64,000 nt of DNA. Source: Flavobacteriales bacterium (GTDB lineage: Bacteria; Bacteroidota; Bacteroidia; Flavobacteriales; JASBRU01). Location of the stretch: the NCBI GenBank assembly GCA_030149285.1, contig JASBRU010000002.1, positions 124,001-188,000 of the forward strand. Reading direction: 5' to 3'. Shown here piece by piece: positions 24,068 to 27,657 of this stretch (positions are counted from its first letter, which is position 1; each line of letters begins with the position of its first letter). Below the pieces are notes generated by a model. That model worked only from the letters and a program-made list of their open reading frames with translations. It made no database searches and had not been told where the DNA came from. Made by a program: the position numbers and the translations under genes.

Positions 24068-26044
24068 ATGAAACTAGCAAGATATTCACTACTTCTATTT
24101 TTAACCCTAGGAGTGGGATTTGCATCTAAAGCACAATCAATTAGTTCACCAACAGTAATAGGTACAAGTTTCTGTGCAGGAGATTTAATGAACATTAATC
24201 ATGGTGCTTGTACAGGACCATATAATGGAGGTAACCAGTTTATCTATGAACTATCTGATGGTACTGGAGATTTTTCAAATTCTGATACATTAGCTACTGT
24301 ATCAACTGCAACTTGTCCTGCAGGACCTGCAGGTTTAGTTTTACCTGAAGATTTGCCTTTGGGTTCTAATTATAGAGTTAGAATTTTAGCAACAGACCCT
24401 GCAACAGTTGGTACAGCGTCGGCATCATTTACGATATTGCCATTGCCAAATGTTACTATAACTGTTCTTAACCCAACAGCGCCAGGTACAAATGTGGCTT
24501 GTGTAGGAGACTCTGTGAGGCTTACTGCGGTATTTAGCTTAGGTAACACTTACCAATGGAAAAGAAATGGTGGTCCAATAGCCGCTGCTGATGGAGGTGA
24601 TAATGATACTATATGGATAGTAGATGATGGAGGAGTATCTACAGGTATTTATACAATAGAAGTTGATAACGGACTTTGTACACATGAAACTCCAATAGGA
24701 GAGTTTATACAGTTTTATACTCCACCAACAACAGTTATTTCAACAAACCAAACACCGGTTGGACCTCATTTATATGAAATTTGCTTTGGAGATTCTGTTG
24801 TACTTCAAGCACCAACACCAATAGCTCCAAATGTGTTTTTTTATGAGTGGCAAATAGACACTAACGGAACATTTATGACTATACCTACAGCAACCAACTC
24901 TAGCTACAGAGCTGTTATTTCTGGAGATTATCAGGTAATAGTTACAGATACATTATGTACTGATACATCTGTAGTAGATATAGTAGTAGTAGATAGTTTC
25001 CCTAATGCATCTGTGGTAAATAATTTGCCTACTATTTTATGTTTAGGAGATTCAACAATATTATCTGCTATAGATACTGTAGCAGGATGGAGATATCAAT
25101 GGCAAATTGATAGTGTAGGTGTTCCAGGTGGATTTAAGAATATAGCTTTGGCAGATGGTGGAGAGGATCCTTTTATACAATTAGACACTACTTTGTTGCA
25201 ACCACCAGTTGGTTCTGCTTCAATTACTACTAATATTAGATTGATAGTTTCCAATGCTAGTTGTAGAGATACATCTATTATAATACCTATTCAAATGTTT
25301 GGACCTCCAAATATTAGAATTGTAGATGGTACAGGAGCAGCTGTAGATACAGTGTCTAGATGCTTTGGAGACTCTGCATTAGTTGTTGCAACAGGAGGTC
25401 TAAGTTATATATGGAATGGGGGAGTAAGCTTTAATGCAAACATTACTCTTACAACACCAGGTTTGTATACGGTAGAAGGTACAGGTCCAAATGGATGTAC
25501 AAATACTGCTTCTGTGTTCTTTGAATTTAATAACCCTACAGTAGATGCTGGTTCAGATCAAACTATTAATCCAGGGGGTAGCGCACAATTAGGTGCTACT
25601 ACTACAGCTGATAATCCAACTTATTTCTGGATACCAACAAATACAGTTACCAACTTTGCAAGTCCAAGCCCTATAGCGCAACCATCTGAAACAACTACTT
25701 ATATAGTAGCAATGACAGATGCAAATGGATGTACTGCTTATGACACGGTTGTGGTAAATGTAGTGGCAGATCCAAATTTAAGTGTGTCTATTATGAACTT
25801 AATATCTCCCAATGCTGATGGATTGAATGATGTATGGGATATTTCTGGAATTGTAGGTGGTGAAAGAGGAGATCTAGTAATTATGAATAGATGGGGATCT
25901 GAAGTATACTCTGATCCAGCATATAATAATAATTGGGGTGGCACTAATGATGGAGGTGATGAGCTACCTGATGGTACATACTATTATGTATTAAAATTAC
26001 CGAGTGGTACGGAATTAACAGGTGCCATAACAATCATTAGATAA
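24068..26044 (+). CDS. T9SS type B cargo protein (gliding-motility-associated C-terminal domain)
   Basis: The 658-residue protein has a signal peptide ending FASKAQ and several Ig-like domains marked by repeated CxGDS or CFGDS motifs. A type B (CHU_C) T9SS sorting domain at about residues 575-658 includes ISPNADGLNDVW, MNRWGSEVY and LPDGTYYYVL. Type B cargos are usually cell-surface adhesins or filaments, and their export depends on an SprF-like protein encoded beside them. That gene follows 34 bases downstream. The ligand is unknown. Confidence 0.92.
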   Translation: MKLARYSLLLFLTLGVGFASKAQSISSPTVIGTSFCAGDLMNINHGACTGPYNGGNQFIYELSDGTGDFSNSDTLATVSTATCPAGPAGLVLPEDLPLGSNYRVRILATDPATVGTASASFTILPLPNVTITVLNPTAPGTNVACVGDSVRLTAVFSLGNTYQWKRNGGPIAAADGGDNDTIWIVDDGGVSTGIYTIEVDNGLCTHETPIGEFIQFYTPPTTVISTNQTPVGPHLYEICFGDSVVLQAPTPIAPNVFFYEWQIDTNGTFMTIPTATNSSYRAVISGDYQVIVTDTLCTDTSVVDIVVVDSFPNASVVNNLPTILCLGDSTILSAIDTVAGWRYQWQIDSVGVPGGFKNIALADGGEDPFIQLDTTLLQPPVGSASITTNIRLIVSNASCRDTSIIIPIQMFGPPNIRIVDGTGAAVDTVSRCFGDSALVVATGGLSYIWNGGVSFNANITLTTPGLYTVEGTGPNGCTNTASVFFEFNNPTVDAGSDQTINPGGSAQLGATTTADNPTYFWIPTNTVTNFASPSPIAQPSETTTYIVAMTDANGCTAYDTVVVNVVADPNLSVSIMNLISPNADGLNDVWDISGIVGGERGDLVIMNRWGSEVYSDPAYNNNWGGTNDGGDELPDGTYYYVLKLPSGTELTGAITIIR

Positions 26045-26078: not shown

Positions 26079-27599
26079 ATGAAAAAAATTGCAATAATAG
26101 CTTTGTTTTTGATGAGTGGCTTGATGATGAAGGCCCAACAAATTCCGCTATACAGCCAATACTATTTTAATCCACAAATTTACAACCCAGCATTATCTGG
26201 CTCTGAAGGTGTAACTGAGGCATCTATATTTCATAGACGCCAATGGAGCGGAGTACAAGGTTCGCCAGAAACTTCGGCGCTTACATTAAATGGAGCTCTA
26301 AACACAGAAAAAGTGGGTTACAGCATCTATTTATTTAAAGATGTTACTGATATTATTGAAAGATATGGTGTATACGGTTCGTATGCATATCACTTAAAAT
26401 TATCTGACAAAACTGTATTATCATTTGGTTTAGCTGCCGGAGTTATAAATAATGGTATAAACCAAGCAGGTGTTACAGTAACGCATTTAAATGACCCTAT
26501 TTTATTATCAAGTATAGATAATAGAACTGCATTTGATATGAATTTAGGTGCAAACTTAAAGGTAGATAACTTTCAGTTTGGTGCTTCTGTAGTACAGCTT
26601 TTAGGTGCTCCAATTAAGTACAGCGAAAACTTTGCTACTGATGTTGAGTACAACATGATTCGTCACTTTATATTCTCAGGTAAGTATAATGTAGAAATTA
26701 AAGGTGATGATATGAGACTAGAGCCAATGGTATTGGTTAGAGCTTCAGAAACAGGTGTGCCTGCACAAATTGATGCAGGAGCTTATTTTAGAGCTAAAAA
26801 AATAGGTTGGATTGGTGCTATGTTCCGTTCAGGGTATGGTGTTACTGCTAACTTAGGATATAACATTAATGATAACCTATCTGTAGGTTATGCACATGAT
26901 TTTTCTATCAAAAGCTTTGCTAGTTCATTAGGTACTTCAAACGAAGTAATGCTTACATATCGTTTTGGAAGTAACAAAGAAAATGAACGTATGAAGAATG
27001 AGCTTAAGAAAATTAAGCGTGATCAAAGACGTATACAAGAAGAGAACGAAGAATTGATTAACGATAAGTTTGATGAGTTGAGAGACGAGTTAAAAGGAAA
27101 CTTAGAGAACCAACCAACCAATCAAGGCGGTAATACCGGAAATCAAGATGGTAATGCTGGAAGCCAAGATGGCAATACCGGAAACAACGGTAACACTGGA
27201 AACAATGGCAATACAGGAAATAATGGCAATACAGGAAATAATGGAAACACCGGAAATCAAGGAAATGCCGGAAACAACCAAGGTGGAAATCAAACAGGTA
27301 ACAATACCAACAATAACCAAGCAGGTTTTGGAAATGGCCAAACAGCAGATAATGTTACCCCAGGTAGTACAGGTTTCTATTTAGTTGCTGGTGTATTTAG
27401 CCAAAAAGAAAATGCTATTTCTTTAGCTCAAAAAATTGAGCGTCAAGGATACCAAGTAAGTTTCTTCCAAGATCGTAACAATGGTTATTTCTATGTGTTC
27501 TTAGCTAAGTTTAACAACTATAACGAAGCTAATAATGTGAAGAGCAATAGAATTGATGGTAAATTCTCTGAAGAACTATGGATTAAAGAAGTGAAGTAA
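26079..27599 (+). CDS. PorP/SprF-like T9SS barrel fused to coiled coil, GN repeats and SPOR domain
   Basis: Residues 1-18 are a signal peptide (cleaved after MMKA). Residues about 20-297 are a PorP/SprF barrel, with YSQYYFNPQIYNPALSGSEG, FHRRQWSGVQGSP and the closing YGVTANLGYNINDNLSVGY. Residues about 298-345 are a charged coiled coil, 351-400 are GNTGNN repeats, and 430-505 form a SPOR domain (GFYLVAGVFSQKENA to LWIKEV). SPOR domains bind denuded peptidoglycan. Ordinary SprF proteins stop at about 300-330 residues. The fusion could tie the outer-membrane T9SS partner of the adjacent type B cargo to the cell wall. A terminator follows. Confidence 0.92.
   Translation: MKKIAIIALFLMSGLMMKAQQIPLYSQYYFNPQIYNPALSGSEGVTEASIFHRRQWSGVQGSPETSALTLNGALNTEKVGYSIYLFKDVTDIIERYGVYGSYAYHLKLSDKTVLSFGLAAGVINNGINQAGVTVTHLNDPILLSSIDNRTAFDMNLGANLKVDNFQFGASVVQLLGAPIKYSENFATDVEYNMIRHFIFSGKYNVEIKGDDMRLEPMVLVRASETGVPAQIDAGAYFRAKKIGWIGAMFRSGYGVTANLGYNINDNLSVGYAHDFSIKSFASSLGTSNEVMLTYRFGSNKENERMKNELKKIKRDQRRIQEENEELINDKFDELRDELKGNLENQPTNQGGNTGNQDGNAGSQDGNTGNNGNTGNNGNTGNNGNTGNNGNTGNQGNAGNNQGGNQTGNNTNNNQAGFGNGQTADNVTPGSTGFYLVAGVFSQKENAISLAQKIERQGYQVSFFQDRNNGYFYVFLAKFNNYNEANNVKSNRIDGKFSEELWIKEVK
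27129..27278 (+). repeat. 18-bp tandem repeat coding for GNTGNN units
   Basis: Eight 18-bp units of the form GGNAAYRCNGGAAAYMAN encode G-N-T/A-G-N/S-N/Q. Two GAT insertions flank the second unit. Two adjacent copies (27207-27224 and 27225-27242) are identical, so the array is recent and prone to slippage. It forms the linker between the coiled coil and the SPOR domain. Confidence 0.9.
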
Positions 27600-27627: not shown

Positions 27628-27657
27628 AAAAAGGGGAGCATTTTGCTCCCCTTTTTT
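27628..27657. terminator. Bidirectional terminator after the SprF-SPOR gene
   Basis: AAAAGGGGAGCA/TGCTCCCCTTTT forms a strong stem with a 3-base loop, flanked by A- and T-runs. On the other strand it reaches the stop codon of the convergent DinB gene. Confidence 0.92.

Follow-up and report, generated by a model that had tools for sequence, protein, structure and literature searches.

A PorP/SprF-type shuttle barrel carrying a C-terminal SPOR domain, encoded next to a type B cargo gene in a Flavobacteriales genome

In the 64,000-nt stretch of Flavobacteriales DNA analyzed here (the window), we found an intact open reading frame of 506 aa (26079-27599, plus strand, translated without internal stop) in which a PorP/SprF outer-membrane barrel of the type IX secretion system (T9SS) is continued by a charged helix, a Gly/Asn-rich linker and a SPOR domain. 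Domain parsing of homologs (barrel and SPOR in one ORF) yielded 98 distinct PorP/SprF-SPOR proteins, and the fusion is a widespread shuttle architecture and not a one-off. No link between PorP/SprF and SPOR was found in the open-access papers searched, in which the fusion is apparently undescribed. The protein is probably a type B shuttle that carries its peptidoglycan tether itself, a single chain that does the job of PorP plus PorE and holds an Ig-like rod statically. Earlier work proposed that type B shuttles are anchored to the wall in trans, by PorP and PorE (PMC9143113, PMC12618676). How type B cargo is held, and why some of it moves and some stays, is a live question in T9SS research. 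A built-in anchor makes the question of holding testable with one domain deletion, and cultured carriers are available (Schleiferia thermophila, Thermaurantimonas aggregans and Phaeocystidibacter luteus).

The fused shuttle and its cargo gene

All features of the shuttle lie on the plus strand. A signal peptide (aa 1-19, 26079-26135) was read from the translation, with the mature protein predicted to start at about QQIPLYSQ; Q20, Q21 and P23 are invariant in the alignments A1 and A3. The barrel follows at aa 20-297 (26136-26969). Pfam PorP_SprF (PF11751) matches aa 18-294 with an E value of 1.2e-61 (209 bits, cut-off 22.3) and NCBIfam T9SS_PorP_fam (TIGR03519) matches with 2e-65 (221 bits, curated cut-off 90.55). 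Both scores are above the curated cut-offs and place the protein in the PorP/SprF family. Foldseek also supports the barrel; its best match is 8gl6 chain F (T9SS substrate-bound complex, E 1.6e-6), a FadL-type barrel that is probably PorV, and FadL comes next. Described PorP/SprF shuttles are barrels of about 300 aa, whereas the window protein adds the helix, the linker and the SPOR tail. The helix or coiled coil (aa 299-343, 26973-27107; AlphaFold2) is predicted to be periplasmic, and its residue E308 is invariant in 38 natural fusions. The linker (aa 347-429, 27117-27365) was delimited by AlphaFold2 disorder and Tandem Repeats Finder. It contains 5.9 copies of an 18-bp repeat at 27169-27274, and the coding pattern GGNAAYACNGGNAAYAAY occurs four times against 0.00 expected. 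In relatives the linker varies freely in length and sequence (for example PN, QP, or nearly absent). The SPOR domain occupies aa 430-505 (27366-27593).

The Pfam SPOR match (PF05036, aa 430-489) has a modest E value of 6.2e-6 (26.9 bits, cut-off 21). It is above the cut-off, and the AlphaFold2 model has the beta-alpha-beta-beta-alpha-beta fold of a SPOR domain at aa 432-505, with block pLDDT of 87-97, mostly above 90. This model was built from an alignment of the 38 natural fusions. It also shows a confident barrel, the helix at aa 299-343 (pLDDT about 81-88 over most of its length) and disorder at aa 347-414 (pLDDT below 50). The overall pTM of 0.54 is what domains without a fixed mutual arrangement would be expected to give. 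The initial annotation had read the order of barrel, coiled coil, GN-repeat linker and SPOR from the sequence; Pfam, NCBIfam, the repeat finder and AlphaFold2 bear it out, and the structure prediction that it had called for finds the SPOR fold in the SPOR region. A PDB sequence search with the shuttle matched only the low-complexity linker and designed helices, and a profile search with the SPOR region gave CwlC (1.4e-6) and FtsN (1.5, not significant) among chance matches. Like the shuttle, DamX, FtsN and RlpA carry a C-terminal SPOR fold after a low-complexity linker. These, however, are inner-membrane proteins or lipoproteins of cell division, while the carrier in the window is an outer-membrane barrel.

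The gene upstream (24068-26044, plus strand) encodes a 658-aa protein with a signal peptide, a chain of Ig-like beta domains and a type IX type B sorting domain (aa 574-658, about 25787-26041, plus strand; TIGR04131, E 8e-13). Pfam matches are CHU_C (3e-22) and Ig_7 (6e-7). The gap between the cargo end and the shuttle start is 34 bases, which agrees with the type B cargo reported earlier at that distance. F. johnsoniae SprF (Fjoh_3951) and P. gingivalis PorP are like the window shuttle in barrel family and in gene position, directly 3' of a type B CTD cargo gene. The AlphaFold2 model of the cargo (21 sequences, mean pLDDT 81.6) is almost all beta, and the predicted chain of Ig-like domains suggests a short adhesin-like rod. 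Foldseek matched it best to the neck and base of the Aureispira grappling hook protein GhpA with a low whole-chain TM-score, and then to contactin/sidekick Ig arrays. The Ig-like neck and base modules of GhpA resemble the cargo model, but GhpA has about 5000 aa or more against 658 aa for the cargo; the likeness is one of structure.

The cargo-shuttle pair stands by itself, flanked by a DAGK gene in divergent and a DinB gene in convergent orientation. The gap between the shuttle and the DinB gene contains a hairpin (27628-27656, 13-bp stem, 3-nt loop) resembling an intrinsic terminator. The scan assigns it to the minus strand, and on the plus strand the stem is followed by a T run. As a terminator-like element it closes the two-gene unit. 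The window genome (76% complete) has six type B CTD genes against three PorP/SprF barrels above 100 bits, and some cargo there may share a shuttle.

Cargo linkage and distribution of fused shuttles

Full-length homologs were collected from relatives, named genomes and 389 class genomes. The sampling used a fusion-based query, and the fused fraction of shuttles is accordingly not a census. Record names in the close set include Schleiferiaceae, Cryomorphaceae, Owenweeksia, Phaeocystidibacter luteus, Schleiferia thermophila, Thermaurantimonas aggregans and Ichthyobacteriaceae. For 40 genomes spread over the class, comparison of match positions placed a Pfam SPOR match inside the PorP frame in at least 11, no two of them from the same family of Bacteroidia. 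The conservation of the fusion, which the earlier reading had left to be checked, is thus established with 98 distinct proteins and at least 11 Bacteroidia families. A chimeric assembly or a frameshift had been named as a possible source of the ORF; it is ruled out because the same ORF architecture recurs in dozens of genomes. In the barrel tree the window protein falls in a clade of 51 rows that are all SPOR-fused (51/51, SH-aLRT 97). Over the whole barrel tree the SPOR label requires 10 changes, at least 5 of them forced by supported branches.

Of the 93 assessable SPOR fusions, 90 have a type B CTD gene no more than 150 bp upstream, and two of the other three have cargo at 215 bp. Pairing with a type B cargo, whose constancy the earlier reading had left to be checked, holds for nearly all loci but not for every one. 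The same linkage is seen in all 16 OmpA fusions (described below) and in 47 of 58 unfused shuttles. Since it is common to fused and unfused proteins, cargo linkage is a property of the whole shuttle family that the fusions have kept. In genome G010, no type B cargo was detected upstream of one SPOR-fused shuttle (locus L013/L124, 4665-6155, minus strand), and a collagen-like ORF is found on the opposite strand (L124, 9139-13461).

Several variants of the tail and of the gene order were also observed. In four genomes from one family of the window's order, cargo-linked barrels (L115, 3501-6851; L116, 3681-7175; L117, 346-4929, minus strand; L118, 3638-6550) continue into about 670 to 1140 residues of TolA-like, Lys/Ala/Asp-rich sequence, which as a straight helix would far exceed the depth of the periplasm. 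Three of these shuttles are SPOR-like at the C-terminus; L118 has its SPOR part in a separate ORF. At L133, L158 and L159, tandem PorP/SprF barrels follow one type B cargo gene, one barrel being SPOR-fused and the other carrying a different tail.

Wall attachment in cis and in trans

The proposed mechanism borrows its first steps from studied homologs. At the SprA/Sov translocon, the PorP/SprF barrel would recognize the Ig-like rod by its type B CTD, carry this cargo out and remain bound to it in the outer membrane. A cognate PorP/SprF shuttle is needed for type B cargo export (PMC12618676), and the shuttle remains bound at the surface (PMC9143113). We infer that the barrel C-terminus faces the periplasm; by simple arithmetic, the 45-residue helix (about 7 nm) and the flexible linker of about 80 residues would then let the SPOR domain reach peptidoglycan. 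Shuttle and adhesin would be fixed to the wall and not carried along a gliding track, and PorP and the wall-binding end of PorE would be combined in one protein.

The mobile alternative is known from SprF, which is driven along the GldJKN track via a twin-cysteine tail bonded to GldK by a disulfide (PMC12635249). The window shuttle has the SPOR tail instead. Its mature form has no cysteine by translation, and none was found in 60 close fusion loci examined; the Cys-X-Cys periplasmic tail of the SprF-type mobile gliding shuttle is therefore absent, and disulfide attachment to the track as in SprF is impossible. The fused protein is free of cysteine and ends in a domain of wall-binding type, which is most economically read as a static wall tether. 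Lack of cysteine was rejected as a mark of the fusions: it is shared by 40 of 59 unfused shuttles, and cysteine does occur in 19 of 100 SPOR-bearing shuttles, none of which belongs to the close clade.

Certain lineages have an OmpA domain at the end of the shuttle, where others have SPOR, with or without thrombospondin-type-3 (TSP3) repeats, and a few shuttles carry OmpA plus a SPOR-like tail together. In PorE, it is the OmpA-type domain that binds peptidoglycan (PMC7192894). That SPOR and OmpA recur at one position suggests a theme general to Bacteroidia, the anchoring of type B shuttles to the wall. Examples directly 3' of type B cargo, each with a barrel, TSP3-like Asp-rich repeats and OmpA, are L119 (3522-5153), L120 (3362-5029), L122 (3037-4668, minus strand) and L123 (3688-5142). 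L121 (2634-4502, minus strand) is a single protein in which the barrel is joined by TSP3-like repeats, an OmpA domain and also a SPOR-like tail.

PorP-PorE-PG1035 of P. gingivalis and Fjoh_3950-3952 likewise consist of cargo, shuttle and a peptidoglycan-binding module, with a static anchor proposed (PMC9143113, PMC12618676); in the wall-anchor model PorP is static via PorE and peptidoglycan (PMC9143113). The wall binder there is a separate OmpA-type lipoprotein, while the window protein has SPOR in cis. No PorE-like TPR/propeller/OmpA gene is present in the window operon, where the convergent DinB gene comes next. Among cargo-linked loci with at least 2.4 kb available downstream, a PorE-like gene was found downstream of 0 of 67 SPOR- or OmpA-fused shuttles versus 15 of 42 unfused ones; "PorE-like" here means that two tested neighbors score strongly against the PorE model, below its curated cut-off. 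The contrast (Fisher p about 1e-7) comes down to about three phylogenetically independent pairs on the tree, and we rejected it as a statistically independent correlation and treat it as suggestive. It fits a fused domain that replaces the PorE partner. Two PorE-like proteins are encoded at other places in the window genome, and anchoring in trans could therefore operate too.

The SPOR tail might instead serve assembly or stability, by positioning the shuttle near the translocon or PorKN/GldKN or by bracing the outer membrane, with the cargo not fixed. In P. gingivalis, PorK is an interaction partner of PorP (PMC9143113), docking at SprA is required of type B shuttles, and in one family (L135, L138, L139, L141, L145) the barrel-SPOR linker consists of TPR-like repeats, which could mediate protein contacts. 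We consider this role quite unlikely: unfused shuttles are cargo-linked too and presumably dock without such a tail, and what is conserved is the terminal domain of wall-binding type, OmpA or SPOR in alternation, and not the linker sequence. Wall anchoring is well supported as an inference. The initial annotation had suggested a wall-anchored variant of the SprB/SprF system. Wall anchoring stands as the best reading, given the class-wide conservation, the cargo pairing, the OmpA fusions and the lack of an adjacent PorE-like gene; SprB/SprF is a valid parallel as far as the shuttle is concerned, but not with respect to movement on the GldK track.

SPOR ligand residues

In other SPOR domains a Gln (RlpA Q270, FtsN Q251, DamX Q351) is the side chain that most consistently contacts denuded glycan (PMC6895207). 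This position is V, T or I in 100 of 100 fused SPORs (V436 in the window protein). Gln loss was rejected as a shuttle-specific trait: the residue is likewise missing from most of the other SPORs sampled in Bacteroidia. W501, equivalent to DamX W416, is kept in 96 of 100 fused SPORs, Y434 in 92 and F440 (aligned with RlpA F274) in 90; K503, equivalent to DamX K418, is kept in 49 of 51 members of the close clade, where the DamX R380 position is not conserved. The basic patch on the beta-sheet of RlpA (R302/R309/R311) could be only partly placed in the alignment (PMC6895207). Binding of the fused SPOR to denuded glycan is plausible from these residues. Its specificity is in doubt because the glycan-contacting Gln is absent from all 100 fused SPORs, and the domain may bind something other than denuded glycan.

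The same residues bear on a second use of the tail. If SPOR recognizes amidase-processed (denuded) glycan, shuttle and adhesin would be placed at the division site or new pole and not evenly around the cell. The SPOR proteins known so far function in division or morphogenesis, septa are enriched in denuded glycan (PMC6895207), and the retained W501 corresponds to the DamX W416 needed for septal localization, with F440 and K503 pointing the same way. We nevertheless regard such targeting as unlikely, given the missing Gln and the unconserved R380 position; in addition, OmpA fusions at the same position suggest that the shared need is wall anchoring and not septal marking. Selective display of an exported T9SS adhesin at division sites or new poles, by a tail that reads the local wall state, is correspondingly doubtful; if true, it would mean that the chemistry of peptidoglycan dictates where on the cell a secreted surface protein is placed.

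An inherited SPOR that has lost glycan binding and has no role would account for the absent Gln and the modest Pfam score. Such a degenerate passenger is very improbable: the predicted fold is confident, SPOR is retained throughout the window's clade, and Y434 and W501 persist in divergent families even as the linker drifts.
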